NCBI GenBank assembly: GCA_949316235.1
Contig: OX438748.1
Coordinates: forward strand, 1,801,001 to 1,865,000
DNA length: 64,000 nt
Source of the DNA: Oegoconia quadripuncta
Lineage: Eukaryota > Arthropoda > Insecta > Lepidoptera > Autostichidae
Direction of reading: 5' to 3'
The position numbers were made by a program, and so were the translations under genes. Under the pieces are notes generated by a model. That model did no database searches. It had not been told where the DNA came from and saw only the letters and a list, made by a program, of their open reading frames with translations. This document shows positions 7,501-58,020 of the stretch, in pieces. The number at the start of each line of letters is the position of its first letter. Position 1 is the stretch's first letter.

Positions 7501-7966
7501 AGGGACAAGTATAAAATATATATTGTCTGCGTCGTATGTGATGCGCTTTATGCTGAGCGCCGTCCGAAGACACCATGCAGAGGAGCGGTTCGCGCACCGC
7601 TGCGGCATGCGGCACCGCGCACAGCTTCGTATGTAAGCGTTCTAAGCAAAGTCAGACATACCTACACTAATTTATATACATGAAGGAAGCTGGCTGCGGC
7701 GTGTCAAAAGAAACAAATAGCCCGCCTCCTTCTATTAATGTCAAGGTCGACGTCGTGCAATTCTTTTTTCATGAAACAAAAAAAAGTAAGTAGGTATTAA
7801 AGTAAAGTGATTTCCGGCAAGCGAAAAGCTCCAAGAAAACTGTCTCTATTCTATATCGAAAATCGAGATTGTGTCGATATATTCAAATTGAAACGTTTAA
7901 ATTGTTTAGGGCGGACAGTGAATACTATCGAAAAACTTGACGATGTCAAGTTTGGCATGTTCAATA
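7501..7966. other. No gene recognised
   Basis: Flank of the broken mariner. Frames open here on both strands are short and motif-free. Confidence 0.5.
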
Positions 7967-25955: not shown

Positions 25956-25961
25956 AACGTT
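25956..25961 (+). repeat. Polinton target-site duplication, left
   Basis: AACGTT, repeated directly at 40959-40964. Polinton integrases make 6-bp duplications. Because the hexamer is palindromic it also reads as inverted, so it could be mistaken for part of the TIR. Confidence 0.85.
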
Positions 25962-26698
25962 AGTAGTACGTATTCGAGAGTTCTGGACCAGCCCCGGGCC
26001 CTCCCCCTAAAAAAAGGTCACCACGGTGTGTTCCCCCTTTCACGGTCTCATTGGCGGCTTTAATTGGGTCGTTATTGACGGATTTGCCAGTTAACTTTGT
26101 TTGCTAATTATAATGGCTAGTAAAAAATTGTCCTTATCTAACCTAATAATAGGTTCACACATAAATCAAGTGGACGATAACTCCTCGGCTTTTGGCGCTT
26201 TTGTGTACCTACAACTGATACAAGTCTGAACTTGTTCATGGTAAGCATAGCGATTACAGCAGGTGTATGTTTTTAATATGGAAAAAAATTAAATTTATTG
26301 TCAGCAATGAAACTGCCTTTCCATTATTCTTTTATTTAGTTTTCTAATTTATGATCAATTTATATTTATGGCAGTAGTCGACAAAAAACATGCACCTTTT
26401 ACGGTGAATAGAAACTTCGTAATTTAAGTTATTTCATTATAGTATACCATTTTTTCCTAGTAAGATTTGGAAACAGGTGAGACTTTTTTGCTCGTCACGT
26501 TGGAATGTGTACGCCTTTAGATGAAATGATAACGATCACCCACTGTCAAATTTATTTATGTTAGTTATTCTTTAGATCGCCATCTGCGGCATACGCAGTA
26601 TTTTTTCTTAATTTTTTAATTCGATTCAATAATAAATATGTAGGGTTAATTCTTAATAGCTACTACGTATGTGGTATCACCACTCTACCTGGATAGGG

Positions 26699-26707
26699 TA
26701 TTTAAAG
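26699..26707 (+). promoter_or_regulatory. TATA-like box of the TIR gene
   Basis: TATTTAAAG lies about 30 bp upstream of CACAGTCC (26728-26735), a plausible arthropod initiator, and about 110 bp before the ATG at 26812. The mirror copy is at 40213-40221. Prediction from spacing only. Confidence 0.5.
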
Positions 26708-26811
26708 CGAGACGGCTTGTACAGCACCACAGTCCAAATTCGATCGCCCGCCTCGCCTCGAGACACAGTCGTACATTTCATAGTGAAAAGTGTTAAACTA
26801 CGCTTTCTGTC

Positions 26812-27388
26812 ATGTCGGTAAGTTTTTGTCTGTAACTACATTGTTTATGTGTTGTCTACTTTACCTGGACGATCTGTTTCGATGCAATTGCTTGACCTAA
26901 CCTTCGTTTTCTGCTCGTTTCAGACGTCGATTCCTGACAGTGATTACACCTTTAAGAACTATTACTTTCCTACTGCCGATCTAAGCGACGATGATGAAAC
27001 TCAAGATCCTCCTGCCTTGAAGGTCAAGCAAAACATTGCTAAGAGAAACATTGATTGTTTCTTTGAGAAGCCCAAGAAAAAGAGGGTCCGACTACAGTCT
27101 TCCAATATTGCCCAAGCTAACGGAGAAGGAACTTCATACATTTCATCGAATAATGATGACGGATCCTCAGCGAGTCATCTCATTAAAATAGAAGTGTATG
27201 AGATGAAAAAGTTGAAAGATGTTCAACCAATTGATTACTGGAAATATGCAGATGTTCGTGTTAAATATTACGCCTCAGAAGACGACAAGCATTACCGAAA
27301 TGTAAGAGATTTAATTTACAATATAACAAAACAGGTGGCAACGAAGACCGACTGCACAAAGTACTACATAACAGCGGATAAGAAATAA
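26812..27388 (+). CDS. TIR-encoded 156-aa protein, left copy (two exons)
   Basis: Exon 1 is only ATG-TCG (26812-26817). It is followed by a 106-nt intron with GTAAGT donor and CTGCTCGTTTCAG acceptor (26818-26923), then exon 2 (26924-27388); phase 0, in frame. An unspliced frame starting at 26849 is open but would translate the intron, so I prefer the spliced start. The product has an acidic N-terminus (DLSDDDETQD, 21-30). At residues 42-49 KRNIDCFF fits a PCNA-binding PIP box (x-x-x-I-x-x-F-F) except for K in the usual Q position. It is followed directly by the basic KPKKKRVR (51-58), which looks like an NLS. The C-terminal half is a lysine/tyrosine-rich alpha/beta-like region I do not recognise. 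AATAAA at 27497 can serve as poly(A) signal. Family unknown; a nuclear role is inferred. Confidence 0.8.
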
Positions 27389-27496
27389 TTCCTGGAATAG
27401 CCCGTTTCTTGCGACTCCCAATAGAGCAACGTTATAATTTATGGGTTTCTTCTTAGCACATTAACTGTCGCGACGCAGACTCTACTGAAAAACAGC

Positions 27497-27502
27497 AATA
27501 AA
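27497..27502 (+). terminator. Poly(A) signal of the TIR gene
   Basis: AATAAA about 110 bp after the stop codon of the 156-aa gene; mirrored at 39418-39423. Confidence 0.5.
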
Positions 27503-27532
27503 TTTTTCGTTCCCCACCGTTTTATACCTGTC

Positions 27533-27554
27533 TATAAGATACACCTCATATAAG
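27533..27554 (+). promoter_or_regulatory. TATA-like pair before the leader exon
   Basis: Two TATAAG hexamers at 27533 and 27549, 45-66 bp before the ATG at 27599. They lie inside the TIR, so both ends of the element carry the same putative promoter (mirror near 39366-39387). Confidence 0.45.
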
Positions 27555-27598
27555 CCACATGCCACCGAGAGATACATTTGTCTAACGCAGGCAGAAGG

Positions 27599-27726
27599 AT
27601 GGCACACTTCGAAACTCAATACGATGACCAACTGGTACGACTGTGTCTCGAAGCCGAACAAGACGAAATCGACCGACAACTCTATGAACTCTACGATGAT
27701 GTCGCAAACCAAGGACCAACAAAATC
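27599..27726 (+). CDS. TIR leader exon, left: 5' exon likely spliced to polB
   Basis: ATG at 27599 opens a frame starting MAHFETQYDDQLVRLCLEAE; its first 30 codons are inside the TIR and identical to the right-end gene (39321 leftward). Unspliced it would stop at 27728-27730 after 43 residues. The stop overlaps a consensus donor, C|GTAAGT at 27727, in phase 2. Acceptors at 27883, 27895 and 28234 are all in the phase that joins this exon in frame to the polymerase frame. I therefore read it as the N-terminal exon of the polymerase transcript. A stand-alone 43-aa peptide is the alternative. The peptide is acidic and probably helical; function unknown. Confidence 0.6.
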
Positions 27727-27895
27727 GTAAGTTTTTTTTTCCCTTGTTTTTATTGTTATGATTCTATACCCGAACGAGTAACTTGTATGAACATGTACCA
27801 AACTAATGTAGAGGGGGCGAGTATGGGTCGGTATATAAACGAGTTGTTCTGTGGTATTGGTATCACTAACAATTAATTCGTAGTTTTGAATTTAG

Positions 27896-30800
27896 AACAA
27901 TGTTGTCTTTGTCGACTGATGAAATACTATCATTAAATAAATTACTTATAATAAGTAAATTTCATCGTTGTATTAGAATGTGGTATATTAGTCACAAACT
28001 GCCTAATGCCATGTTGGAGGACTTAGAGATTATGCCCTATTATACACCTTGTCGTGGTCATTCAAAAAAAAATTATGTGACTACTGGAGAGACCGATGAA
28101 ATTGATGGTGTTATGCTAATGCAAGCATATTGCAAGCTGTGCAATGTGAGTATTATAATCGAGTTCTCGATTGTAATATTAATTTTGAATGTTTACTTTA
28201 ACCTATACTTATTAACCTATGCACCTCTTTACAGATCGAGTTCTCAAGTTGGCGGGAAAAGAAAATCGGAATCATGTGAAGGAACTGCTTCGAAGACTCG
28301 TCGAACACTAGAATGTCAAGATTATCAAGAACCATCAACATCAAGAATAGTGCCCCCAACTGTGAGTTACTTAGATAAACTAATAGTAGAATGTACCATA
28401 TGTAAAGTGTCAGTCAGCAAGCGATATTTTTCTAGCCATTTAAAGAGTAATTTACATAAAAATAATTTAATTACTGTTCACGATAACTTAGCAAATGTTC
28501 AGGTTATTGAGAGTGCATTTGGACAAAGGGTAAAAACTTACCGAATAACTTCAGACTCCAATATATTACATTTAGAAGTCGAAACGCCTGAATCATTTCT
28601 ATTAGGAATAAAATCCACTTTATTACAACTGATGAGCAAATGCATTAGTGATTTAACCCTCATCAAGGTAAATTTTATTTTACATGCCGATTTTGTGCAA
28701 CAAACAAAAGATTTACACAATTCTTTTGACTTTCAAACTTTTAATTATAGCTATTGCGTGGGGGATGATCCTGATAGCATAATTTCATTAATTTTTAAAG
28801 AAATTTCTGAAAAAGTTAGTAATTTTGAAAAGAAAGACAGCGGTTGGAGTTTGGAGAAAATCATATATCTTGATATGAATGTTAATAAATTTAACCCTTT
28901 ACGCGGTTCCTCCTATATAGACTTGCCTCTTGATATAAAACACAAAAAAGCCATCGTAAATGTTAAAAATAATGACCAACAATGTTTTCAATGGGCTGTA
29001 CTTTCCGCACTATATCCAGCTGCTCAACATTCTGACAGAGTAACGTCATATTTAAGTCATAAAAACAAATTAAATTTCACAAACATTCCTTTCCCGATGA
29101 AACTTAAAGATATTCATAAATTTGAACAGCTAAATAATATCAGCTTAAACGTTTTCGGTTTAGAATATGTTGCTAAAGAGAAAAAAAACCAAATCATTGG
29201 GCCTTTATACTTCACGAAACATCGAAAAGAAACTCACATTAATTTATTATATTTGAAAAATGGTGCTAGTAACTGTGGCCATTACTGCTACATAAAGAAT
29301 TTATCTAGATTAGTTAGTAATCAAATCACTGCGAGACACGGCGCTGTTTATATCTGTGACGGCTGTTTGCTGTATTTTCCAACACAGGAACAGTTAAACA
29401 ATCACTATCAGTTCGATTGTAATCATATAAAAACTGATTTACCAAATGACAAGCCGAGGAAAACCATATGGTGTGGAGAACCGCTACCTAATAACAGATT
29501 AGCCTTCAACAATTATGAGAAAAAATTAAAAATTCCGTTTGTAGTGTACGCAGATTTCGAATCATTTTTAAAGCCCATACAAACATGTAAAAACGACCCA
29601 TCTAAATCCTTCACAGCCAATATACAAAAACACGAAGTGTATAGTTTCGGCTATTATATTAAATGTTCATACAATGATCAACTTTCTGTTTATAGAAAGT
29701 ATACGGGTGAAGATTGTGCCCAGGTTTTTATGAAATTTCTTAAAAATGATTTAATTAACATCTGTCGAAAAAACTCCTTTCAGATATGTCCAGTGCCATT
29801 GACCACCGAAAATAATCGGGATGTGTTACAAAGTAGGGTATGTTTTATTTGTGAAAGTGAATTGAAAAATGATTCCACGGTATATTGTGATTGGTATACT
29901 GGCTTGTACAAAGGAGTTGCTCACTCGATGTGTGCTTCTAATTATAGAGCTCCCCGGTTTGTTCCTGTCTTTTTGCACAACTTAAATAATTATGATGCAC
30001 ATTTCATTGTTCACGCGCTGAATTTTGATGAGGGAGATATTGAAATAATTCCCCAAAACAAGGAAAAGTATATATCATTTTCAAAAAAAATTAATGTTTT
30101 AAATAATACTATGACCTTGAGATTTTTAGATTCTTTTAAATTCATGTCGTGTAGTTTGGAAAAGTTAGCACAAAATCTTAAAACCGACAAATTTCATGAA
30201 CTCCATAAAAATTTTCCGGATCAAGAAGATTTTAAGCGTTTGACTAGGAAAGGCATTTTCCCTTATGAATATATGACTTCATTTAATATATTAAAACAAG
30301 ATTATCTTCCAGCCCAAGATAAATTTTATAACTCGCTGGTAAATGAGCATGTTTCACTGGAAAGTTATAAACACGCAGAAGACGTATGGAATCATTTTAA
30401 TTGTAAAAATATGTCTGATTACTCAGATTTATATTTAAAAACCGACGTCTTATTACTAACTGACATATTTGAGAATTTCAGAAGTTTATGTTTATCTACT
30501 TATGATTTAGACCCTGCTCATTATTTTACTGCGCCCGGTCTGAGTTGGGATGCCATGTTGAAGTATACAAAAGTAAACCTAGAACTTCTGACCGATTTTG
30601 CCAAAATTGCGTTCATAAAAAAAGGTATTAGAGGCGGTATTTCTCAATGTAGCAATAGACACGCGAAAGCTAATAATATGTTCATGGAAGACTACAATAA
30701 TGAATTACCTTCATCCTATTTGATCTACCTAGATGCAAATAACCTGTACGGTTGGGCTATGTCACAATATCTCCCCATCGGTGAGTTTGAATGGGTTGAT

Positions 30801-31955
30801 GTAAATACTAATTTCAACGTTTCAGATGATTCAGAATATGGATTCGTGTTAGAAGTTGATTTACAATATCCTGATAATTTACACGATTCTCATTCCGATC
30901 TACCTTTCTGTCCGGATAATTTATGCTCTGAAAATAGCAAAGAAAAAAAATTAATACTAAATTTAAACAATAAAACTAAATACATCATCCATTATAGGAA
31001 TCTAAAACAATGTTTAAAATATGGTTTACAATTAACGAAAGTACACCGAGTACTTAAATTTAAACAAAGTATATGGCTGAAAAAATACATCGATTTAAAC
31101 ACAAATATGCGTACTTTAGCGGTCTCAGACTTTGAAAAGGATTTTTATAAACTAATGAATAACTCTGTCTTTGGAAAAACTATGGAAAATATCGAAAAAC
31201 GGGTTAATGTAAAACTACTCACACATTGGGAGAATCGAGGTAAAGTTGAAGGTGCTCAATCATTAATATCGAGGCCTGAATTTCACAGTCTTTCAATTTT
31301 CTCAGAATCGTTGGTAGCTATACAATTAAGAAAAACTAAATTGCTGTATAACAAGCCTATATATTTAGGTTTTTGCATATTAGATATTTCGAAAACATTA
31401 ATGTATGACTTTCACTATGACTATATGAAAATTAAATTTCAAAAGAATTTAAAACTACTTTATACTGATACCGATAGTCTTATCTATCAGATATATAGTA
31501 AAAATATATATTATGACATAAAGCCCGATTTATTGACTTACTTTGATACATCTGATTATCCCATGGATAATAAGTATGGGTTACCGCTAGTTAATAGGAA
31601 GAAACTAGGTCTCTTTAAAGATGAAAATAATGGAAAAATATTTAGAGAGTTTGTTGGATTGAGATCAAAAATGTATGCGATTGATGTAGACCACAAATTT
31701 ACAGCAAAAGCAAAAGGTGTCAATAAAAATGTGACAAAGAATTTTAATATGGAGCAATATAAAAGTTGCTTATTCCAAAAAAAGATTCACATTTCTGAGA
31801 TGTTGCGATTCAAATCTATTAAACATGTAATTTATACCCAAAAAATTAATAAGATTTCTTTATCGCATAATGACACCAAAAGGCATTTACTGGAAAATTG
31901 TACTGATACTCTAGCTTGGGGACACTATAAATTAAGAAAAAGTGAACACTTTTAA
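27896..31955 (+). CDS. polB: Protein-primed family B DNA polymerase (pPolB)
   Basis: Replicates the element from its termini by protein priming, as in other Polintons. The frame is open from 27900 (ATG) to 31955, 1,351 codons. Motifs (numbering from 27900): a C-x2-C...H...H finger (CTICKVSVSKRYFSSHLKSN) near 165; a region with NNDQQCFQWAVLSAL (~358) and GHYCYIKNL (~460) resembling a papain/OTU-like Cys-His pair; a finger ICDGCLLYFPTQEQLNNHYQ (~486); exonuclease motifs YADFESF (~550), NNYDAHFI (~698) and YLKTDVLLLTDI (~844); polymerase motifs YLDANNLYGWAM (~942), KLMNNSVFGKTMEN (~1083) and YTDTDSLIY (~1186). All catalytic aspartates are present. The end, LAWGHY near the C-terminus, is usual for the family. 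A candidate 89-nt intron (28146-28234) interrupts the N-terminal part; see findings. The catalytic region is secure, the exact N-terminus is not. Confidence 0.93.
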
Positions 31956-32676
31956 GTTATTTTTTACGTCAGGAACATTTTTTAGTTTTATATAAAAAAG
32001 TTATTATTCACACGTCGTAGCCTTATATAATTAATTAACCTATTGTGTCAAATTTTTATTACATGCGTATGTAGCGTGTAGCACTATTTTTGCAATTTGT
32101 TTCGCTTCATTGTATGAAAATAGTTTTGTAGTCGTAGTATAACGTATATAGTATTTTGTGGGGGTCCTAGAACTCAGGTTGTTGAGCAACTAATGTGTAT
32201 AGAAAATCTAAAAATGTATAAGTAAATTAAACATAGTTAATTATTATTTTTGTAATTTTAAAATGAAAGATAATACTAATTGAGATGTTAAATTGATTTT
32301 ATTGTTTTTTTTTTTTTTACTTTGATAATATGCTGATATATGAGGGAGAGGAGGCCTTTGTCCAGCAGTGGGACATTGGGAGCTTATAATAATAATATAT
32401 GCTGATAAAATCAAAGTAAAAATTAAATGAAATTTCTGTGTATATGTGGGAAGTATATGAATATATTTATCGACACTCATATAATAATAATACTGTATGA
32501 TGACTAATTTTAAAAGATGTGTTGTTGTGGAGTTTCTTAGGTCGCTTCTTCTCCATAGCCATAACACCTTTTTGAAGCGATATAGTAAAAAATTTAAAGT
32601 TTATAATAAGTGTTTTATTGTTTTTATTCCATTCCCCCATTCTACAGCCTGCAAGTAACACGCTCAATAATGAAAA
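31956..32676. other. Gap between polB and the virion genes, with a LINE scrap
   Basis: Non-coding, AT-rich. Holds the polB 3' UTR and, at 32341-32385, GAGGCCTTTGTCCAGCAGTG GGACATTGGGAGC, the 3' tip of an RTE-type LINE (compare 19690). It is followed by TTATAATAATAATA. This looks like a tiny retroposed fragment inside the Polinton. Any promoter for the downstream block should lie here, but I see no decisive motif. Confidence 0.6.
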
Positions 32677-33339
32677 ATGATTCATTTCATACACCCCTTC
32701 ACAGCTATAGTAGCAGGTCCTAGTGGGTGTGGTAAATCAAACTTTGTCACTAATTTTCTTAAATTTATGAAAGAAATATGTAACACTAATTTTTCACGAG
32801 TAGTATGGTGTTACGATGAAATGCAACCTTTATATAATTTGAACAACGTCGACTACAGTCAAGGTATACCGGATTTAAACATGTTTGATGGGAAGCAACC
32901 ACAATTACTTATAATAGATGATCTTATGAGAGAATCCGATGGTCGTATAGTGGACATTTTTACTAAAGGTAGTCATCATAGAAACCTTAGCGTGTTTTAT
33001 ATAACACAAAATTTATTTCATCAAGGCAGAGGACAACGTGACATTTCTTTAAATTCAAGTTACATAGTATATTTTAAAAATCCCCGGGATAGAACACAAA
33101 TACGCCATTTAGCGCGCCAAGTGTTCCCAGATAACTCTAAGTTCGTAGAAGAAGCTTATAAAGATGCTACGTCAGAAGCACATGGCTATCTAATGATTGA
33201 TTTAAAGCAAAATACAGACGATATGTGTCGTTTTAAGACTAAGATATTTCCCCTCAATAGCAATTGTGTAGTTTATGTATCGAAAAAGGGTTATAAATAT
33301 AATACGTATCGTGATAAAATTACAGTTAACAGTAGATAA
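32677..33339 (+). CDS. FtsK/HerA-type genome-packaging ATPase
   Basis: 220 aa, the usual size for Polinton packaging ATPases. Walker A is AGPSGCGKSN (residues 13-22) and Walker B is LLIIDDLM (~77-84). YITQNLFHQG (~109) matches the sensor-like region after Walker B in this family. It would drive DNA into a preformed capsid. The start at 32677 fits the family pattern (short HPF segment before Walker A). The stop overlaps the next ATG (TAATG at 33337-33341), so the two frames are likely co-transcribed. No damage seen. Confidence 0.92.
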   Translation: MIHFIHPFTAIVAGPSGCGKSNFVTNFLKFMKEICNTNFSRVVWCYDEMQPLYNLNNVDYSQGIPDLNMFDGKQPQLLIIDDLMRESDGRIVDIFTKGSHHRNLSVFYITQNLFHQGRGQRDISLNSSYIVYFKNPRDRTQIRHLARQVFPDNSKFVEEAYKDATSEAHGYLMIDLKQNTDDMCRFKTKIFPLNSNCVVYVSKKGYKYNTYRDKITVNSR

Positions 33340-33557
33340 TGTCTGAAGAAGCAGTGACACGAGATCGAGAGTTAGTTTTACAAGTACTAACACCTAAATA
33401 TCGCAAAGCTCTATTAAAAGAATGTACTGATGACAAAATAAATCGTATCTGTGAAAGTATTTTAGATACTTTGGATGAAATCCCCATAAAGGAAGTCCGG
33501 GAATCAAAATTTAGCTTCTTAAATCTACATTGTTTCTTTTCAACAAACATTGCTTAG
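33339..33557 (+). CDS. Small pX-like paralogue, C-terminally shortened
   Basis: 72 aa. Residues ~18-50 (LTPKYRKALLKECTDDKINR ICESILDTL) align with the N-terminal half of the next gene (LKPKYCTALLKVCKDEEINC LCECIYNIL), so the two are tandem duplicates. This copy lacks the basic stretch, the QKGG site and the hydrophobic tail of its neighbour, ending instead in LNLHCFFSTNIA. It may be a decaying duplicate or a soluble variant. ATG overlaps the ATPase stop. Confidence 0.6.
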   Translation: MSEEAVTRDRELVLQVLTPKYRKALLKECTDDKINRICESILDTLDEIPIKEVRESKFSFLNLHCFFSTNIA

Positions 33558-33608
33558 TATTTGCTTCTAATATTAACAACATTGTAAAAATATTATCAGT
33601 CGTTTACA

Positions 33609-33938
33609 ATGGTTGGTAGAGTGACGACGCATCTAGACTTATTAAAAGCATTACATACACTCAAACCTAAGTATTGTACAGCTTTATTGAAGGTTTGTAA
33701 GGATGAAGAAATAAATTGTTTATGTGAATGCATTTATAATATTTTAAATGGTAAAATTCCTCTGAAGAATCAAGATAAATCCAAGTTGAATAAATACAAA
33801 ACTATATTGAGAAAATTGGTGTCTAAAGGTAAAAGTAACTCTCGAAAACGAATTATTATACAGAAAGGTGGAGCATTCCTACCCATTATTTTAGGTTCCG
33901 TTCTCAGTGGATTACTAAGTTCGTTTCTAAATAAGTAA
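33609..33938 (+). CDS. Small virion-type protein, pX-like
   Basis: 109 aa, of a kind widespread beside Polinton/adintovirus capsid genes. N-terminal helical domain (LKPKYCTALLKVCKDEEINC...), a lysine/arginine-rich middle (KGKSNSRKRI), then QKGG (residues ~88-91) and a hydrophobic tail AFLPIILGSVLSGLLSSFL. QKGG|A fits the adenain-type cleavage rule (M/I/L/N/Q)-x-G-G, so the protease encoded at 38429 may release the tail. Resemblance to the adenovirus pX/late small proteins is by layout, and a membrane-active role is inference. Confidence 0.65.
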   Translation: MVGRVTTHLDLLKALHTLKPKYCTALLKVCKDEEINCLCECIYNILNGKIPLKNQDKSKLNKYKTILRKLVSKGKSNSRKRIIIQKGGAFLPIILGSVLSGLLSSFLNK

Positions 33939-33946
33939 AAATTACA

Positions 33947-34714
33947 ATGGAACATACAAAGAAAATGATACTTGTGGAACCCCACATCCTAGAAAGGATT
34001 AGGGACAGTAACCATGTTCATGAAAAGCCCTTATCCCGTCTTGATGAGGAAATGAGTAAAATCTTACACAGTAAAATTGATGATCGTGAGAAGTGGACAC
34101 AGTACTCGCAAATTTTACAAAGATATTTACATTTTGCTAATAAAGAACGTCATCCCATTAAATTACCAATAGTTACAGATGACTCTATGTATGATGTTTT
34201 TAAGACTATTAAAAAGGAAGAAAGTGATGTTAAAACAATAGTTCCAGAATTGCCAAGAATAGAGGAAGACGTAGCAGCGGAAAAACATATCTCATCACGT
34301 TACACTCCAAATTATTTATTTAAGTATATACCAAAAACATATAAAAAGAAGGGCGAGTTGTTATTGGAAGGTATATTGGATCATGAAAATATTATTAAAT
34401 GGGATACCAATGGTCATGTTGTAATCAATGACGAAGTTATTGATAACAGTAATATTGTGGATTTAGTGAACGATGCCCTAAGACCATTACGACGCCCAAA
34501 ACCATTAGGCTGGGAGAAGTTTGCTTCAGCTTTAAGGGATATAAAAATACCGTTATCTTGTATAGGTAACCCAGAAACGCTTGAATATATTAATAATATT
34601 CATTCATCTGATTTAGAGAAAGACGATCCAGCTCAAATTAAAACGCCAAAGCAAAAACCTGGTGGCTTGTTTCACAAAAGAAAACTTGACTGGGAGAAAT
34701 GGACTCCCATATAG
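33947..34714 (+). CDS. Polinton conserved protein of unknown role (255 aa)
   Basis: Starts 8 bp after the preceding stop and overlaps the integrase start by 16 bp. N-terminus HILERIRDSNHVHEKPLSRL DEEMSKIL, then DDREKWTQYSQILQRYLHF, a pattern I associate with uncharacterised Polinton-linked proteins. C-terminal end GGLFHKRKLDWEKWTPI. Charged, no membrane segment, no catalytic motif recognised. Its place among virion genes suggests a structural or assembly role, unproven. Confidence 0.75.
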   Translation: MEHTKKMILVEPHILERIRDSNHVHEKPLSRLDEEMSKILHSKIDDREKWTQYSQILQRYLHFANKERHPIKLPIVTDDSMYDVFKTIKKEESDVKTIVPELPRIEEDVAAEKHISSRYTPNYLFKYIPKTYKKKGELLLEGILDHENIIKWDTNGHVVINDEVIDNSNIVDLVNDALRPLRRPKPLGWEKFASALRDIKIPLSCIGNPETLEYINNIHSSDLEKDDPAQIKTPKQKPGGLFHKRKLDWEKWTPI

Positions 34715-35781
34715 ATAATATAAATAAAATTTATTATGATGTCTCTCATCCAGCTGGATACAGTAGCATTGAAAAATTGACGAAAGCTATGCAAGGGAAA
34801 ATGAATGAAAAGGATGTAAAGAAGTGGTTACAATCCCAAGAAACTTATACTTTACATAAACCTGTCAATAGGCGATTTCCTAGAAATAAATATATTTTAT
34901 CTAATTTTAATGAACTCTGGCAAGCAGATTTAAGTGACATGCGAACATACAATCAATATAATGATGGATTTAATTATATTCTCTGTGTTATTGATGTGTT
35001 TAGTAAGTATGCATTTGCGAGACCTATGAAAAAGAAAAATTCTAAAACTGTAAAGATATGTTTTGAAAGCATATTTATTGAAGCGAAAGCTACTCCTAGA
35101 CATATACAATCTGATAAAGGTACAGAATTTGTTTCAAGAGATGTAAACCAGTACTTCAAAAAGAAAAATATTAATTACTATACAACTAACAATCCGGACA
35201 TAAAGGCCAGTATTGTGGAAAGATTTCAAAGAACCCTAAAAATGAAAATGTGGCGATATTTCACACATAATAATACGTATAGGTATGTTGATATTTTACA
35301 AGATTTATTATATTCTTATAATCACAGTGTCCATTCAAGTATAAAAATGTGTCCAAGTGATGTGAATTCCAGTAATATAATGACAGTATGGTCTAATTTA
35401 TATGATAGGTACAACTTAAACACTTCAGACCGATTACCATTTAAAGTAGGTGATTATGTTAGAATAACGAAATATAAACACATTTTCCAGAAAGGTTATG
35501 AAACAAATTGGTCCGATGAAATATTTGTAATAGAATCCATTGTAAAAAGACTTCCTTGGTTGGTTTACAAATTAAAAGATCTACAAAATGAATCAATAAT
35601 TGGTACATTTTATGGAAGGGAATTACAAAAAGTAATCTATGACCCCACTATTACCTACAAAATAGATAAAATAATACGCACTCGCTATTCTGGCAACAGA
35701 AAGGAAGTGCTAGTCAAATGGAAAGGATATCCTAATAAATTTAATAGTTGGATATCCGCATTAAACTTAGAAACAATATGA
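34699..35781 (+). CDS. int: Retrovirus-type integrase with C-terminal chromodomain
   Basis: 360 aa; inserts the element and makes the 6-bp target duplication. Catalytic core (rve fold): first acidic residue in LWQADLSDM (~D76), second in HIQSDKGTEF (~D139), third in SIVERFQR (~E174), spacing 34 between the last two. N-terminal part contains a short helical domain but no obvious HHCC finger. The tail, from about 318, YKIDKIIRTRY ... EVLVKWKGYPNKFNSWISA, is a chromodomain with the aromatic KWKGY...NSW signature, which could direct integration to modified histones. The frame ends ATA-TGA, overlapping the next ATG. Confidence 0.93.
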   Translation: MDSHIDNINKIYYDVSHPAGYSSIEKLTKAMQGKMNEKDVKKWLQSQETYTLHKPVNRRFPRNKYILSNFNELWQADLSDMRTYNQYNDGFNYILCVIDVFSKYAFARPMKKKNSKTVKICFESIFIEAKATPRHIQSDKGTEFVSRDVNQYFKKKNINYYTTNNPDIKASIVERFQRTLKMKMWRYFTHNNTYRYVDILQDLLYSYNHSVHSSIKMCPSDVNSSNIMTVWSNLYDRYNLNTSDRLPFKVGDYVRITKYKHIFQKGYETNWSDEIFVIESIVKRLPWLVYKLKDLQNESIIGTFYGRELQKVIYDPTITYKIDKIIRTRYSGNRKEVLVKWKGYPNKFNSWISALNLETI

Positions 35782-36557
35782 CGGAAGATAGTTTTTATCT
35801 TACTTTGCCAAGCAATAGTTCAACTGCATATTTCCCCCAAAATACAACCGCCAACTTTGTAACAAAGTTACCTAAAACTGTTCAATTGGAAGGAGAATGG
35901 GTTGTAGGATTAGCTGAATTTCATTATCCCTGTGCTATATTTAACGTCCAAGAAAATGAGAATATTCTTTTCGTCAAGAAGAAAGTAATAGTCGAAGGAG
36001 ATGACGAATCATTAATATCAGTGGAATATAAATCCCAAATTCCTTCATTTCCTTATGATAACATCAACAATTTTCTAAAAGTATTTAATGAAAATAGCCT
36101 CCTACAAAATCAAGTGGCATTCCAAATTGATAACGACTCGAAACTTATCACTGTTACGAACTTAACTCGCAGTGTATCATCGTTGATTTTGTCACCTACA
36201 TTAAATCTTCAACTCGGTTTCGAGCCATATACAAATTTAATTGCGGATCCATACGCTAAATACCCAGCGAACTTACAATTAGGATTACCATCACAGCTAT
36301 TTATTTACTCTGATATTATTCATCCTCAAATAGTTGGAGATGTAATGACCTCATTATTTAGAATCATACCGCTAGATCCATCAAAATACAACTATGGTGC
36401 TTATAAAATGCACGTATTATCTCCAATTCATTATCTTCCAGTAATGCGCAGAGAATTTGACATAATCGAAATAGATATAAGAACAAGCATTGGTAATAGA
36501 GTTCCATTCCAGTTTGGAACTGCATGTGTTAAACTACATTTTAAACGAATAAAATGA
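35778..36557 (+). CDS. Penton-like minor capsid protein
   Basis: Begins at ATG 35778, which overlaps the integrase stop as ATGA. The 10 extra codons upstream fall inside integrase and I exclude them, leaving 259 aa. N-terminus MTEDSFYLTLPSNSSTAYFP, then ANFVTKLPKTVQLEGEWVVG LAEFHYP, is the conserved opening of the Polinton/adintovirus penton (single-jelly-roll minor capsid) family. It would form the vertices of an icosahedral shell with the major capsid protein at 37006. Ends ATGA-overlapping with the next gene. Confidence 0.85.
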   Translation: MTEDSFYLTLPSNSSTAYFPQNTTANFVTKLPKTVQLEGEWVVGLAEFHYPCAIFNVQENENILFVKKKVIVEGDDESLISVEYKSQIPSFPYDNINNFLKVFNENSLLQNQVAFQIDNDSKLITVTNLTRSVSSLILSPTLNLQLGFEPYTNLIADPYAKYPANLQLGLPSQLFIYSDIIHPQIVGDVMTSLFRIIPLDPSKYNYGAYKMHVLSPIHYLPVMRREFDIIEIDIRTSIGNRVPFQFGTACVKLHFKRIK

Positions 36558-37003
36558 ATTATAAGCGTGATAATATCGTTTGTCCTTATCATCATTATTA
36601 TTCTAATCAAGCTGGATCAGGTGTAGGTATCATATACAGAGGTGTACCGCATCAACGTGGTCACGGCATTGGAAGTTTTTTGGGCGGACTATTTAGATCT
36701 GTATTTCCACTCATAGCAAGTGGTGCCAAGACAGTCGGGAAAGAGGCATTAAGCGCAGGAGTAGGTTTATTATCAGATATGGTCAGGGCACAACCAATGG
36801 GGGAATCAATTAAGTCTCGACTCAAAGAAGCAAGTGCTAATTTAAAACGAAAAGCGGATAACAAAATTGATTCGCTTATGTCTGGCTCAGGGTATAAAAT
36901 CAAGAGACTTCGAAAGAAACCTACCATTTCATTGAAACCATCTAAGCGAAGAGGAGTTGACAGGAAGAAAAAAAGTAATATAAAAGATATATTTTCAAAT
37001 TAA
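36554..37003 (+). CDS. pVI-like basic, glycine-rich minor virion protein
   Basis: 149 aa. Overlaps the penton gene by 4 bp (ATGA). Features: GSGVGIIYRGVPHQRGHGIG (21-40), a glycine/hydrophobic amphipathic stretch FLGGLFRSVFPLIASGAKTV (~42-61), a helical middle, and a lysine/arginine-rich C-terminus (KRLRKKPTISLKPSKRRGVD). The layout resembles adenovirus pVI/pVII-type precursors: an amphipathic helix able to act on membranes plus a DNA-binding basic tail. Glycine-rich sites may be cut by the maturation protease. Family membership is by position and composition. Confidence 0.72.
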   Translation: MNYKRDNIVCPYHHYYSNQAGSGVGIIYRGVPHQRGHGIGSFLGGLFRSVFPLIASGAKTVGKEALSAGVGLLSDMVRAQPMGESIKSRLKEASANLKRKADNKIDSLMSGSGYKIKRLRKKPTISLKPSKRRGVDRKKKSNIKDIFSN

Positions 37004-37005
37004 CT

Positions 37006-38319
37006 ATGTCGTTTCTTCATAATAATTCTTGTGAGTGTGTTAAATCAGAGTTAGATCTTTTTGCTATACCATCAACACAGACAAGTATTGAGAGTGGGCA
37101 ATGGATTCATTGTACACCGATATCATCGCTAAGTGATGAAGGACCAATTGAATTTGTTATGCCAGGAAGTGGAGATGACTACATTGATTTGTCACACACC
37201 CTCCTTCATGTTAAAGCTAAAATTATAAACCTAGATTCTACCACTCCTCCCCCTGATGAGAAGACAGCACCTGTTAATAATTGGTTGCATTCACTTTTCA
37301 ACCAATTAGATGTTTATCTAAATCAAAAACTTGTATCACCTCCTAATAACACATATGCTTATCGGGCTTATATTGAGACTCTACTTAATTATGGACCAGC
37401 GGCAAAACAATCACACTTGACTTGTGGTATGTGGTACGAAGATACAGCTTCAAAGATGGATTCATGTGATGACAACAACAAGGGCTTTCACAAAAGACAT
37501 CAACGGGTAAAAGACGGCAAATCAGTTGAAATGATTGGACATTTGCACGGTGATCTATTTAATCAAGAAAAGTTCTTAATAAATGGGGTAGAAATACGTG
37601 TTAAATTAGTACGTAACAAAGACACTTTTAATTTAATGTCATCATCAGTGAATTCAAAATATAAAGTTCAAATTGATAGCGCTACTCTTATATTGCGAAA
37701 GGCAAGAATAAATCCATCCGTTTTACTCGCTCATCAAAAAGTTTTAACCACTACAACTGCAAAATATCCAATTACTCGCGCTGAAGTTAAAGTTTTAACT
37801 ATTCCATCAGGAGTCCGTGGAAAAACAATTGACAATGTATTTCTTGGTCAGGTGCCGAAAAGATGTATTATCGGATTTGTTGATAATGTTGCTTTTAATG
37901 GTACTTTCAATACCAATCCATTTAACTTCGATAATCATGATATAAATGTATTTAGCTTGTATGTAGATGGGCAACAAATTCCTTCTAAAACCCTAATGCC
38001 ATCATACCGTAGCGGTGTGTTTACGAGTAGTTACCATACGTTATATACTGGAACAGGTATTCACTTTTTGAATGAAGGCAATTCCATATCGATTGAGGAC
38101 TATGCAAATGGATACTGCTTAATGGCATTTGATTTAACTCCTGATCTATCTGCTAACTCAAGTTCCCACTGGAATTTGATAAAACATGGGTGTGTTAGAA
38201 TAGAAGTCCAATTTGAATCAGCTCTTGCAAAAACTCTTAACTGCATTGTGTACGCAGAGTTTGACAATGTTATAGAAATTAATAAAAATAGAGATGTGAG
38301 TGTAGATTATAATAGTTAA
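37006..38319 (+). CDS. Major capsid protein (double jelly roll)
   Basis: 437 aa. Conserved blocks typical of Polinton MCPs: FAIPSTQTSIESGQWIHCTP near residue 19, IEFVMPGSGDDYIDLSHTLL HV (~45-66), the NNWLHSLFNQLDVYLNQKLV block (~86), YAYRAYIETLLNYGP (~112), and late SNSSSHWNLIKHGCVRIEVQ-like sequence near 395. The shell of Polinton-like viruses is built from trimers of this fold. Begins 2 bp after the pVI-like stop, so the penton, pVI-like and MCP genes form a tight block. Uninterrupted. Confidence 0.88.
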   Translation: MSFLHNNSCECVKSELDLFAIPSTQTSIESGQWIHCTPISSLSDEGPIEFVMPGSGDDYIDLSHTLLHVKAKIINLDSTTPPPDEKTAPVNNWLHSLFNQLDVYLNQKLVSPPNNTYAYRAYIETLLNYGPAAKQSHLTCGMWYEDTASKMDSCDDNNKGFHKRHQRVKDGKSVEMIGHLHGDLFNQEKFLINGVEIRVKLVRNKDTFNLMSSSVNSKYKVQIDSATLILRKARINPSVLLAHQKVLTTTTAKYPITRAEVKVLTIPSGVRGKTIDNVFLGQVPKRCIIGFVDNVAFNGTFNTNPFNFDNHDINVFSLYVDGQQIPSKTLMPSYRSGVFTSSYHTLYTGTGIHFLNEGNSISIEDYANGYCLMAFDLTPDLSANSSSHWNLIKHGCVRIEVQFESALAKTLNCIVYAEFDNVIEINKNRDVSVDYNS

Positions 38320-38428
38320 GTATTCAGCATTTTTGTATCTATTATAGTATATAAGATTTCCATATAATATTTTTCATCATTATCCGTTAAACTACCTTAA
38401 TGTATGTATTTAAGAAAGTATTTCAATA
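38320..38428. other. MCP-protease spacer
   Basis: 109-bp AT-rich gap, the longest within the capsid block. It contains TATATAAG at 38347, a possible separate promoter element for the protease. Confidence 0.35.
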
Positions 38429-38866
38429 ATGGATACACACGAAATTAGACTATTTATGAAAAAGATAAATCACAGTCTAGAATTTAACGTGTTCCCTGCT
38501 AACAGAATACCAATGTACATAGAAGCACCCACTTACTTTATTTCTAACTTGGATCCTGATACAAAATCGGGATCACATTGGGTAGCCATTCATATCAATG
38601 CTAATGGTATCGGTGAATATTTTGATTCATATGGTAGAAAGCCTACCGGCCACCATAAATCGTTTTTGAAAAGAAATACTCGGAAATGGTTTTACAATAA
38701 TAAAATTCTTCAAAGTCACTTAACTTCTGTTTGTGGTGAATACTGTTTAGTGTATCTGTACTTTAAGTTTATGAATATGAGCATGTCAGAGTTTTTAAGA
38801 GATTTTTGCGATATTCCTTTGTATAACGATATATTCATAAATAAAATATTTAAAACCATTTTTTGA
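38429..38866 (+). CDS. Adenain-like maturation cysteine protease
   Basis: 145 aa. Catalytic elements in adenain order: His in GSHWVAIHI (~H50), acidic residue in YFDSYG (~D66), Gln in ILQSHLTSVCGEYC (~Q95) and Cys in SVCGEYC (~C102). It would cut capsid precursors such as the pVI-like and pX-like proteins at glycine sites during maturation. Shorter than adenovirus protease (about 200 aa), as in other Polintons. Followed by AATAAA at 38870. Confidence 0.9.
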   Translation: MDTHEIRLFMKKINHSLEFNVFPANRIPMYIEAPTYFISNLDPDTKSGSHWVAIHINANGIGEYFDSYGRKPTGHHKSFLKRNTRKWFYNNKILQSHLTSVCGEYCLVYLYFKFMNMSMSEFLRDFCDIPLYNDIFINKIFKTIF

Positions 38867-39009
38867 AATAAATTTATTTTACCAATTATCTGTTTTTTAT
38901 TTACATTATCCTATTTTGATATAGAAGAGTGAAGATAATGAAACATCAGAATTACAGTTTTACTTTATTTATTTTCTAATTAAACATTATAATACAATAT
39001 TGTAGCTAA
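38867..39009. terminator. Convergent 3' ends of the protease and right-arm genes
   Basis: AATAAA for the plus strand just after the protease stop, and reversed signals (CTTTATTTATT near 38963) for the minus-strand gene ending at 39010. The two transcription units converge here. Confidence 0.5.
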
Positions 39010-39321
39010 CTAATCTATCTGCGGGGTTGGACTATAGACACCCGGTGATAATGAAAACAATTTTTCAGACGCCCACGACGTTTCATAAACTTCTTCTTCC
39101 TGTTCCAATGACATGAGTGGGTTCGCTGGCCGCTGCAGAAATGTTAGTATAGGGGGAGGTGAGGGTCTTGAATACCCACCATAATCGTAATTGGCCCACT
39201 GGCGGAGATTATTTAGGTTTTCTTCATGGAATTCATAGAGTTGTCGGTCGATTTCGTCTTGTTCGGCTTCGAGACACAGTCGTACCAGTTGGTCATCGTA
39301 TTGAGTTTCGAAGTGTGCCAT
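39010..39321 (-). CDS. Right-arm protein with TIR-derived leader (103 aa)
   Basis: ATG at 39321. The first 30 residues, MAHFETQYDDQLVRLCLEAE..., are encoded in the right TIR and equal those of the left leader exon. At the TIR border (39232) the frame continues into unique DNA encoding a different tail: FHEENLNNLRQWANYDYGGY, then a proline-rich SRPSPPPILTFLQRPANP and an acidic LEQEEEVYE. I do not recognise the tail. Acidic, proline-rich, no membrane segment. A TTG seven codons upstream is in frame but I take ATG as start. Confidence 0.65.
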   Translation of the reverse strand: MAHFETQYDDQLVRLCLEAEQDEIDRQLYEFHEENLNNLRQWANYDYGGYSRPSPPPILTFLQRPANPLMSLEQEEEVYETSWASEKLFSLSPGVYSPTPQID

Positions 39322-40958
39322 CCTTCTGCCTGCGTTAGACAAATGTATCTCTCGGTGGCATGTGGCTTATATGAGGTGTATCTTATAGACAGGTATAAAA
39401 CGGTGGGGAACGAAAAATTTATTGCTGTTTTTCAGTAGAGTCTGCGTCGCGACAGTTAATGTGCTAAGAAGAAACCCATAAATTATAACGTTGCTCTATT
39501 GGGAGTCGCAAGAAACGGGCTATTCCAGGAATTATTTCTTATCCGCTGTTATGTAGTACTTTGTGCAGTCGGTCTTCGTTGCCACCTGTTTTGTTATATT
39601 GTAAATTAAATCTCTTACATTTCGGTAATGCTTGTCGTCTTCTGAGGCGTAATATTTAACACGAACATCTGCATATTTCCAGTAATCAATTGGTTGAACA
39701 TCTTTCAACTTTTTCATCTCATACACTTCTATTTTAATGAGATGACTCGCTGAGGATCCGTCATCATTATTCGATGAAATGTATGAAGTTCCTTCTCCGT
39801 TAGCTTGGGCAATATTGGAAGACTGTAGTCGGACCCTCTTTTTCTTGGGCTTCTCAAAGAAACAATCAATGTTTCTCTTAGCAATGTTTTGCTTGACCTT
39901 CAAGGCAGGAGGATCTTGAGTTTCATCATCGTCGCTTAGATCGGCAGTAGGAAAGTAATAGTTCTTAAAGGTGTAATCACTGTCAGGAATCGACGTCTGA
40001 AACGAGCAGAAAACGAAGGTTAGGTCAAGCAATTGCATCGAAACAGATCGTCCAGGTAAAGTAGACAACACATAAACAATGTAGTTACAGACAAAAACTT
40101 ACCGACATGACAGAAAGCGTAGTTTAACACTTTTCACTATGAAATGTACGACTGTGTCTCGAGGCGAGGCGGGCGATCGAATTTGGACTGTGGTGCTGTA
40201 CAAGCCGTCTCGCTTTAAATACCCTATCCAGGTAGAGTGGTGATACCACATACGTAGTAGCTATTAAGAATTAACCCTACATATTTATTATTGAATCGAA
40301 TTAAAAAATTAAGAAAAAATACTGCGTATGCCGCAGATGGCGATCTAAAGAATAACTAACATAAATAAATTTGACAGTGGGTGATCGTTATCATTTCATC
40401 TAAAGGCGTACACATTCCAACGTGACGAGCAAAAAAGTCTCACCTGTTTCCAAATCTTACTAGGAAAAAATGGTATACTATAATGAAATAACTTAAATTA
40501 CGAAGTTTCTATTCACCGTAAAAGGTGCATGTTTTTTGTCGACTACTGCCATAAATATAAATTGATCATAAATTAGAAAACTAAATAAAAGAATAATGGA
40601 AAGGCAGTTTCATTGCTGACAATAAATTTAATTTTTTTCCATATTAAAAACATACACCTGCTGTAATCGCTATGCTTACCATGAACAAGTTCAGACTTGT
40701 ATCAGTTGTAGGTACACAAAAGCGCCAAAAGCCGAGGAGTTATCGTCCACTTGATTTATGTGTGAACCTATTATTAGGTTAGATAAGGACAATTTTTTAC
40801 TAGCCATTATAATTAGCAAACAAAGTTAACTGGCAAATCCGTCAATAACGACCCAATTAAAGCCGCCAATGAGACCGTGAAAGGGGGAACACACCGTGGT
40901 GACCTTTTTTTAGGGGGAGGGCCCGGGGCTGGTCCAGAACTCTCGAATACGTACTACT
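39232..40958 (-). repeat. Polinton right terminal inverted repeat
   Basis: Mirror of 25962-27688, same length and identical in all stretches compared. Ends CGTACTACT before AACGTT. It supplies a second full copy of the 156-aa gene, facing inward. Confidence 0.95.
39532..40108 (-). CDS. TIR-encoded 156-aa protein, right copy (two exons)
   Basis: Mirror of the left copy: exon 1 40103-40108, intron 39997-40102, exon 2 39532-39996. Sequence identical on inspection. The element thus carries two doses of this gene, and TIR homogenisation would keep them the same. Function unknown; see the left copy for the PIP-like and NLS motifs. Confidence 0.8.
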
Positions 40959-40964
40959 AACGTT
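40959..40964 (+). repeat. Polinton target-site duplication, right
   Basis: AACGTT, matching 25956-25961. Confidence 0.85.
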
Positions 40965-55771: not shown

Positions 55772-56440
55772 TCAATCTGACATTTCCTCATCTTCGAAAT
55801 TCTCAGTTTCTTTATCATTATCAGTTTCCAGGATTTCATACCATGGCTTTAATTCATCCGGGATTACACCTTTTTTTATCAAATTAAGTAGATCTTTCTT
55901 TTTAGCTTCCGATATAGGTAACGGTCGTTGGTAGAGTTGCTTTAACTTCTTTGAAAAATCAAAAATTTCACATGGCTGTTTTTTTTTCTTCAACTTGTGG
56001 ATCGAGTAGAAATTTCTGTGGAGAACACGTCTATGAAATTTAAGTTTTCACTCATGTCATAATTAAAGTAAATTCTCTTTTCACCTTTCACAAATTTCAA
56101 TCTTTTAATTTTTAGCCACTGCACTCGCTCATTTTTATTGTCTTTGTCTCTATTCTGTATTATACCGTTAGCTAAATCTTTCAAGTCATAAAATTATTGA
56201 TACTTAAATTCTTTGGTCTTATAATATGGCTCCTTCACTATCTTCTTATTGTTAATGATATGCACTTTTCTACGCCTTGCACGTTGACAAATTTAAATCC
56301 AGTCCTGCAACGAATACACCCAAGTATTTTTTTTTCTGAGACTATAGCACTGTGCATAGAATCGGCCTCCATATAGGTATGTCCAGATTCTAAAAATTCA
56401 TTCATTTTGTCTAACGTAACTGTCGAGCCGCCAAAAAGAG
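55772..56440 (-). pseudogene. Inverted copy of the transposase 3' end (left arm)
   Basis: Minus-strand pieces LESGHTYMEADSMHSAI (56350-56400), ERVQWLKIKRLKFVKGEKRI (56060-56125) and KKLKQLYQRPLPISEAKKKD (55890-55960) match the right arm in order, with a frameshift near 56310 and a stop near 55990. Disconnected from any 5' half on this strand, so a dead duplicate. Confidence 0.75.
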
Positions 56441-56442
56441 TC

Positions 56443-57501
56443 ATGGCTATCAGAAAGAAATACTCCCAAAGATCGTATACAAAGAAGTGTTATTTCACAA
56501 TCAATGATAAAAAAGTACAAGTATGCCAGAATTTTTTTACACAAACACTTGATATTGCGCCATCAGTAGTTATTGACGCCATTAAAAAGCGCAATCCTAC
56601 TGGTGGATTTGGTAGCTCTGATCATAGAGGCAACCATGAGCCTGCTAATAAAACTAAATTTGATGTTTTGAGTGGAATCCGTCGGCACATAGAGTCTTTT
56701 TCATGTATAGACACTCGCTATACTAGAAAAGATACAAAAAGACAGTTTTTAGGAGCAGATCTTAATATTAGAAAAATGTACATATTGTACAAAGAAGAAT
56801 GTCAAGAAAAACAGCAAGAAATAGCAACAGAGATAACCTATAGGCGACTCTTTTCGAAAGAATATAATCTTAGTTTTTTTATACTTAAAAAAGATCAATG
56901 TGCATTGTGCAATAATTATAAAAACACGGAACCTGATAAAAAGATAACGTTAGAAAAAGATTATAGCGAACACATTGAGAGAAAAGACAAATGTAATAAA
57001 GAGAAAGAAAACGATAAGCAAAGAGCTAACAAGGATCCTAATTTTTATTCGGTTACATTCGATTTGCAAGCAGTACTACACATACAGATACCCCACTCCA
57101 AAGTAAGCCTTTTATATTATTCTAGAAAACTTAATGTTTATAACCTAACTGTTTATGAAGCAGGTTTACCTAATAATGCTTATTGTTTTCTGTGGTCTGA
57201 AATTCATGGTAAGAAAGGAAGTTGCGAAATAGGATCTATTTTATTATACTATTTGTCTAAATGTGTACCTTGTAAAATAACAGAAGTTAGCCTATTCTCA
57301 GATACATGTTCAGGACAAAATAGGAATCAGTATGTTGCTGCATTGCTTCTATGGGCCGTTCATAATATAGAAAACATCAAAATCATTGAACAAAAGTTTT
57401 TAGAATCTGGACATACCTATATGGAGGCCGATTCTATGCACAGTGCTATAGAGTCTCAGAAAAAGAATACTTCGGTGTATTCGATGCAGGACTGGATTTA
57501 A
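56443..57501 (+). pseudogene. DUF7869-type putative transposase, broken 3' end
   Basis: ATG at 56443 (an upstream TTG at 56407 is in frame but lies at the junction with the inverted arm). The frame runs 352 codons to TAA at 57499. Three acidic blocks in order fit a DD(E/D) nuclease: SVTFDLQAVL (~D207), LFSDTCSGQNRNQYVAALLL (~D287) and GHTYMEADSMHSAIE (~D330). An internal CALCNNYK (Cys pair, ~165) may bind zinc. After the stop the same frame continues with matching sequence (ARRRKVHIINNKKIVKEPYK), a second stop TAG at 57634, then the ERVQWLKIKRLKF block, so the gene has been cut by nonsense changes. This family recurs in insect and cnidarian genomes; transposase activity is inferred. Confidence 0.7.
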
Positions 57502-58020
57502 ATTTGTCAACGTGCAAGGCGTAGAAAAGTGCATATCATTAACAATAAGAAGATAGTGAAGGAGCCATATAAGACCAAAGAATTTAAGTATCAAGAATTT
57601 TATGACTTGAAAGATTTAGCTAACGGTATAATATAGAATAGAGACAAAGACAATAAAAATGAGCGAGTGCAGTGGCTAAAAATTAAAAGATTGAAATTTG
57701 TGAAAGGTGAAAAGAGAATTTACTTTAATTATGACATGAGTGAAAACTTCAATTACATAGACGTGTTCTCCACAGAAACTTCTACTCGATCCACAAGGTT
57801 GAAGAAAAAAAACAGCCATGTGAAATTTTTGATTTTTCGAAGAAGTTAAAGCAACTCTACCAACGACCGTTACCTATATCGGAAGCTAAAAAGAAAGATC
57901 TACTTAATTGATAAAAAAAGGTGTAATCCAGGATGAATTAAGCCATGGTATGAAAGCCTCGAAACTGATAATGATAAAGAAACTGAGAATTTCGAAGATG
58001 AGGAAATGTGAGTGTGAGGC
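57502..58020 (+). pseudogene. 3' remainder of the DUF7869-type gene (right arm)
   Basis: Continues the frame of the preceding entry after its stop. LKIKRLKFVKGEKRIYFNYD (57680-57740) and, in another frame, KLKQLYQRPLPISEAKKKDL (57845-57905) parallel the left arm. TAG at 57634, a frameshift near 57795 and a lost base run near 57905 mark decay. Confidence 0.7.

Follow-up and report, generated by a model that had tools for sequence, protein, structure and literature searches.

Structure and Gene Content of the Element

The window analyzed here, a stretch of 64,000 nucleotides of the Oegoconia quadripuncta genome (bases 1801001–1865000 of contig C7), harbors a Polinton of 14,997 bp at positions 25962–40958. 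The element belongs to a set of over a hundred near-identical copies scattered through the genome and represents a known kind of element (Polinton/Maverick) in an unusual state, namely high copy number combined with near-identity. Its 5′ end reads AGTAGTACG and its 3′ end CGTACTACT, giving the AG...CT termini of Polintons, and its length, its 1,727-bp terminal inverted repeats (TIRs) and its AGTAGT ends agree with the size and end structure of this class (about 15–20 kb, TIRs, AG...CT). A reading made from the sequence alone had described a full-length, intact Polinton with AG...CT termini, identical 1,727-bp TIRs, an AACGTT duplication and undamaged polB, ATPase, integrase, penton, major capsid protein (MCP) and protease genes. 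Base-by-base alignment of the TIRs confirmed the ends, and all of the named open reading frames (ORFs) are open over the 14,997 bp, so that this description is upheld. Twelve ORFs of at least 90 amino acids (aa) starting with ATG lie within the element, whose features are as follows:

25956..25961, no strand: left 6-bp target-site duplication AACGTT (different 6-bp duplications at the same place in other copies)
25962..25967, + strand: terminal triplets AGTAGT (a third AGT at one end in two other copies)
25962..27688, + strand: left TIR, 1,727 bp, same sequence as the right TIR
26882..27388, + strand: ORF of 168 aa in the left TIR
27041..27064, + strand: PIP-box-like motif KRNIDCFF of the TIR protein, with a basic run after it
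27900..31955, + strand: polB, 1351 aa (motifs, homologues)
32677..33339, + strand: putative packaging-type ATPase, 220 aa (Walker A GPSGCGKS, Walker B-like LLIIDDL)
33609..33938, + strand: ORF of 109 aa without family match
33947..34714, + strand: ORF of 255 aa without family match
34699..35781, + strand: retroviral-type integrase with chromodomain, 360 aa (Pfam, motifs, PDB matches)
35778..36557, + strand: probable penton (minor capsid) protein, 259 aa (from its place directly before the MCP)
36554..37003, + strand: basic ORF of 149 aa without informative family match
37006..38319, + strand: MCP, 437 aa (predicted double jelly-roll fold)
38429..38866, + strand: putative adenain-like cysteine protease, 145 aa (motifs SHWVAIH, VCGEYC)
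39010..39321, − strand: ORF of 103 aa crossing the inner border of the right TIR (without family match; no homologue search made)
39232..40958, − strand: right TIR, 1,727 bp
39532..40038, − strand: second copy of the 168-aa TIR ORF
40959..40964, no strand: right 6-bp target-site duplication AACGTT

In the base comparison of the two arms, agreement extends from 25956 up to the 1,734th position, which corresponds to a TIR of 1,727 bp after the 6-bp duplication, and an independent repeat search of the window returned the identical TIR pair. AACGTT is its own reverse complement, and the window copy alone cannot separate it from TIR sequence. It is assigned to the duplication because other copies carry different 6-bp duplications directly outside the same AGTAGTACG, which rules out AACGTT as part of the TIR.

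Among the proteins of the element, Pfam clearly recognizes the integrase alone, with matches to the rve domain expected of a Polinton integrase (PF00665, E 8e-13) and to a chromodomain (6e-9). Residues D77, D139 and E174, with 34 residues between the last two, are compatible with a DDE triad, and the PDB matches of the catalytic domain are mostly retroviral integrases. The chromodomain resembles Rhino, HP1 and related chromodomains among solved structures, which may point to a chromatin target preference. The polB, ATPase, integrase and protease ORFs all contain motifs characteristic of these proteins. A Pfam search of the polB sequence gave no polymerase match; some of its homologues are named DNA-directed DNA polymerase or labelled PF03175. 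A vOTU-like domain has been described for Polinton polymerases in one study (PMC11071308), and the polB motif CFQWAVLSAL may mark such a domain here. The ATPase and protease are putative assignments from motifs and weak profile matches: the ATPase ORF, a candidate for the FtsK/HerA packaging type, shows Walker motifs together with weak Pfam matches to other P-loop families, and the protease ORF carries the His and Cys motifs, with a Peptidase_C48 match (E 0.027) under the cut-off.

The 437-aa ORF is predicted to encode the MCP, in line with its modeled double jelly-roll fold, and the 259-aa ORF is, from its position and size, probably the penton, which in Polintons is a single jelly-roll protein; this candidate has no informative family match in Pfam, PHROGs or NCBIfam. 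Searches of the element proteins against PHROGs and NCBIfam, of the MCP and polB sequences against PDB, and of the window against Rfam returned nothing informative. No MCP relative was found in viral contigs and phage records, where insect viruses of such kind may be missing. In total, 2,537 MCP homologues pass E 0.001, and among the best 120 the named ones are led by Plutella, Parnassius, Bicyclus, Melitaea, Leptosia and Colias at 72–76%, with fireflies next at 64%. When relatives are compared, the capsid protein is more conserved than the polymerase. Clusters of capsid and polymerase sequences from Parnassius mnemosyne (P0020 and P0172) contain 164 and 57 members, respectively, and this butterfly may have a comparably large Polinton family of its own.

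Each TIR additionally carries the ORF for a 168-aa protein. This protein gave 27 database matches, including the protein of the window itself, and every one of the five named homologues comes from Lepidoptera. Together with the capsid matches, these homologues point to a moth or butterfly as the likely host. The motif KRNIDCFF of the TIR protein resembles a PCNA-interacting (PIP) box. The pattern xxx[ILMV]xx[FY][FY], followed within ten residues by three or more basic ones, is present in 23 of 25 aligned rows, where one row is a repeat of the query, as opposed to 1.54 by shuffling. The predicted structure is poor (mean pLDDT 55.5), with blocks from about residue 100 to 160 averaging 74–82, and the profile gave a single weak PDB match to SAKe6BE-L1 (E 0.0021), presumably a designed protein. 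Due to this weak match and the poor predicted structure, no fold is claimed.

Copy Number in the Genome

The genome searched comprises 622.6 Mb in 45 contigs (C1, C2 and so on). A 28-base terminus pattern, allowing up to two mismatches, occurs at 278 places (141 forward, 137 reverse), as opposed to none for the same pattern read backwards. The first 100 places listed all have zero mismatches and group into 45 elements on C1 to C6, each of which has termini on both sides. Measured between the innermost ends, 39 of these 45 elements are 14,997 bp long within 25 bp, the others being 4.3, 14.2, 14.3, 15.1, 18.4 and 21.5 kb. Scaling 45 elements per 100 places to 278 places would give a total of about 125 elements in the whole genome.

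Protein searches of the genome, which score the best candidates alone and therefore provide lower bounds on intact genes and not rates of intactness, point in the same direction. The best 113 of 1,607 integrase candidates, the best 96 of 205 capsid protein candidates and the best 34 of 447 polymerase candidates are all full-length and without stops. Identity is 100% throughout the scored rows, six integrase rows scoring slightly lower, and for 29 of the 34 scored polymerases one of the 96 capsid genes is found at the expected spacing.

One deletion derivative was observed at C3:4327507-4333910, with a size of 4.3 to 6.4 kb, three termini and the matching outer duplication ATAATG; it is a possible non-autonomous offspring. 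A distant capsid query (best 95 of 203) also finds three slightly divergent members of the window Polinton family. Further capsid places recovered by the same query comprise two at 624.6 bits and six at 605–611 bits, with open frames of 451 and 439 aa (C16:19128065 and C19:8261800, plus places on C9, C18, C6, C10, C1, and C14). These places apparently belong to two additional Polinton lineages whose capsid genes are open, and several intact families may coexist in the genome.

Insertion Sites and Target Preference

The junctions of the 45 listed elements were read from long pieces (five), separately (one) or from 60-bp pieces (39). All 45 show the 6-bp target-site duplication typical of Polintons; 43 agree directly, and two once an additional AGT triplet on the left is assigned to the element. 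A second sample of 20 copies, read in long pieces, was picked by contig, includes two close pairs and overlaps with the 45 listed elements in five cases. Here the duplications match in 18 copies, and the two mismatched copies form a pair on C11 (3675096 and 3688957), spaced by 13.9 kb and separated by an assembly gap of 200 N. The outer ends of this pair adjoin GTTGTT, and the single readable inner end adjoins GCATTG. The gap rules out a dimer with a shared TIR, and a scaffolding fault or recombination is the likely origin.

When the flanks of the 18 copies were joined minus one duplication, five (L011, L017, L021, L027, L041) matched repeats that cross the join ungapped, the match of L017 being weak at the join itself. 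The joined flanks of the window element, searched in the same genome, gave no match spanning an empty site among the 40 places scored; besides the window's own two flanks, all 38 other matches correspond to the left flank, which is repetitive.

Across 59 insertions (the 39 read from 60-bp pieces, the 18 copies with matching duplications, C4:29803486 and the window), 37 have a pyrimidine-purine step at the center of the duplication, as opposed to a window background of 24.6% (p 7e-10). Insertion therefore favors a pyrimidine-purine step amid the six duplicated bases. A central flexible step of this type is typical of retroviral integrases. A palindromic target preference was rejected, since 57 duplications contain on average 0.825 matching pairs of 3 as opposed to 0.812 by chance.

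Variant Ends and Probable Homogenization of the TIRs

Rare variant copies may provide information on the ends of the replicating genome. Tandem repeats of the terminus are found in eight elements, with units of 107, 115 or 131 bp (those on C8, C16, and C17 partly from positions). Read base by base, the units consist of TIR positions 1–105, 1–113 or 1–129, then GT, then the terminus again. Among the 100 listed places, GT precedes all nine inner termini of tandem repeats but only six of the 91 other places (p 2.6e-9); four of these six correspond to duplications beginning with AC and two to ends with an extra AGT. The latter triplet, which two of the 45 listed elements carry as a third AGT on the left, is rejected as the sole explanation of the inner termini, as two of the breakpoints are preceded by G. 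Both ends carry the terminus repeats in at least four of the eight elements (two on C4, one each on C8 and C16), whereas L023, L029, and L039 carry them at one end only, as far as read; the right end of the C17 element is ambiguous.

At TIR position 156, a variant also links the two TIRs of a copy: all four carriers among the 20 copies have it on both sides, and it was unseen in the other 16, two of which are without one of the two sites. Because the variant occupies both TIRs in every carrier, the TIRs appear to be kept alike during multiplication.

Age and Decay of the Family

The age of the family was assessed by comparing about 4 kb at each end of 20 other copies with the window copy (the left TIR of one C11 copy was not comparable); the stretch from about 29950 to 35500 was compared between copies via the polymerase and integrase protein searches alone. 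Fourteen substitutions are private to one copy, plus one private to the window copy (27852), while shared variants comprise a synonymous protease variant in eight copies, a one-base insertion in two and the TIR variant in four. The 15 private substitutions over 21 × 7,980 bp, a denominator which ignores about 3 kb of deleted or missing sequence, correspond to 9.0e-5 per site (5.0e-5 to 1.5e-4), or about one per 11 kb. With a lepidopteran mutation rate of 2.9e-9 per site and generation, the age is about 31,000 generations (17,000–51,000), a figure that leans to the upper side since assembly and replication errors count among the substitutions.

This near-identity suggests that the family likely spread very recently. 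The initial proposal of a recent insertion, which had been drawn from the identity of the two TIRs, is thus borne out in its conclusion by the comparison between copies, whereas TIR identity is the weaker clock; on its own it is rejected for this purpose, as the TIR variant changes on both sides together. Some copies have started to decay: the first half of polB is broken by a stop in one of the 20 other copies, by an 8-bp deletion in a second and by a 661-bp deletion in a third, and one copy has lost 600 bp of a TIR.

Proposed Mechanism and Alternative Explanations

It is probable that the more than 100 near-identical copies arose by multiplication that was likely protein-primed; the element's own retroviral-type integrase is predicted to have inserted them following removal of two bases at either end. 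In this model, the free linear genome would end in 5′-GTAGTAGTACG, a run of GTA triplets (a triple GTA repeat), on which the terminal-protein-primed polymerase would jump back. Adenoviruses jump back in this manner during protein-primed replication on triplet-repeat ends, and the extra AGT triplets in two of 45 elements fit such a jump on the GTAGTAGTACG repeat. The simplest reading of the GT before inner termini is that replication templates carry two bases more than integrated copies and that integration removes them. The integrase would accordingly take off the terminal dinucleotide (GT on the 5′ strand, AC on the 3′ strand) and join the recessed ends to the target by retroviral-type integration at central pyrimidine-purine steps; for such a two-nucleotide removal, the GT retained at the three tandem-terminus breakpoints gives at most an indirect hint. 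The TIRs would be kept alike by pairing of the two ends within a single-stranded replication intermediate. Finally, replicated genomes would be packaged in double jelly-roll capsids, and the burst may have proceeded via particles within or between hosts.

Several observations weigh against parts of this model or restrict it. The counts of 96 of 96 capsid and 34 of 34 polymerase genes are lower bounds on identical copies, the C11 pair is without matching duplications, and the polB and TIR deletions show that not every copy is intact. Private TIR changes at positions 1229, 1527, and 1667 are one-sided, as expected after insertion, and give no support for homogenization. The inner terminus of the rearranged C3 derivative, which is not a tandem repeat and belongs to the 91 other places, has no GT before it. 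Conservatively, the GT rule amounts to three distinct breakpoints with a chance of about 2e-4, because copies with the same unit may share descent. The 107-bp unit is equally readable as TIR 1–106 plus T, and the 115-bp unit as TIR 1–112 plus AGT. Hence the GT might be microhomology or filler from end joining that is uninformative on trimming, and the extra AGT ordinary replication slippage on a triplet repeat. The small number of independent breakpoints and the alternative readings of two units favor this explanation, which is nonetheless unlikely: an extra GT fits all three units, whereas an extra AGT fits one, the other two having G before GT. Moreover, the integrase falls by sequence among retroviral integrases, for which trimming of two bases is the rule. 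An assembly artefact, in which one or a few elements were entered repeatedly or free viral DNA was joined to scaffolds by mistake, could account for the N run and mismatched duplications of the C11 pair and for three integrase places near positions 5,000–26,000 of C26, C39, and C44, probably small unplaced contigs. It is very improbable given that each of the 45 listed elements sits in different flanking DNA between matching duplications of its own, that private substitutions differ between copies and that related empty sites rejoin exactly.

A further alternative concerns the capsid genes. The polymerase and integrase might have driven a purely intracellular transposon burst, with the capsid genes as passengers that are intact through the youth of the copies. 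The copies are so young that any gene would mostly stay open, and selection would not be visible among the copies of so young a family; particle spread is a prediction from the genes, and the integration and replication genes could suffice for copying. This explanation is a real possibility, although its chance falls short of even. For a passenger it would be unexpected that the capsid protein outdoes the polymerase in conservation among relatives and that 2,537 capsid homologues pass E 0.001, and the same genome apparently holds two further Polinton lineages with open capsid genes. The better conservation of the capsid may, in turn, reflect proteins from different elements of one species. Protein-primed multiplication with integrase-mediated insertion could be extended to a live endogenous DNA virus that is invading its host, combining adenovirus-like triplet jump-back priming, two-base trimming and retrovirus-like integration, having spread more than 100 proviruses through particles and tapping the host replication machinery with a TIR-borne, predicted PCNA-binding protein. 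Taken as a whole, this extended scenario is tentative and less likely than not.

Comparison With Known Systems

The element resembles vertebrate Polintons/Mavericks in its gene set, 6-bp duplications, AGT-repeat ends and size near 15 kb (PMC8097293). In that study, a single vertebrate genome holds no more than 38 intact copies and 17 species together hold 134, the polymerases of the three largest families named (axolotl, tuatara, and pike) are broken, and TIRs measure 46–1,447 bp with ends (AGT)2//(ACT)2. By contrast, at least 113 open integrase places are found here, and the TIRs measure 1,727 bp and each contain an ORF. Sf Maverick 1 and 2 of Spodoptera are likewise lepidopteran and share the polymerase, ATPase, integrase, and protease, but no PY-type (double jelly-roll) capsid protein is reported for them in the study concerned, whereas the window element has one by predicted fold (PMC5803895). 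High copy numbers and open capsid genes are shared with protist Polinton-like/Maverick elements; in Paulinella, however, the study gives identical copies for only 49 of 2,678 capsid sequences, while the window family is near-identical over the pieces read (PMC10120064). The literature searched on Polintons/Mavericks, as far as its text was available, reports neither such a lepidopteran burst nor two-base trimming by a Polinton integrase, which is not proof of absence.

Compared by structure, the predicted capsid fold is the double jelly-roll of the Mavirus and Sputnik virophages and of adenoviruses, and triplet-repeat ends and protein priming form, by analogy, a further likeness to adenoviruses. 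Unlike these viruses, the window Polinton is known here as an integrated sequence. Maverick particles had not been seen, according to the abstract of the vertebrate study (PMC8097293), and this species would be well suited to testing whether Polintons still build them. With more than 100 near-identical copies, 39 of the 45 listed ones full-length and many with open core genes, it would offer a far better subject than the few intact copies given in that study for most genomes that have any (PMC8097293). The family is also a natural experiment on end chemistry, in which rare variant ends may record the free genome before integration.

Other Elements in the Window

Two further features were noted in the window. 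A 2-kb element at 55872–57919 has adjoining inverted arms of 352 and 111 bp at each end and a 374-aa ORF with DUF7869, and is possibly a transposon with an unusual transposase. The fragment at 7186–7641 on the − strand contains a DDE_3 transposase domain that is mariner-like by eye.

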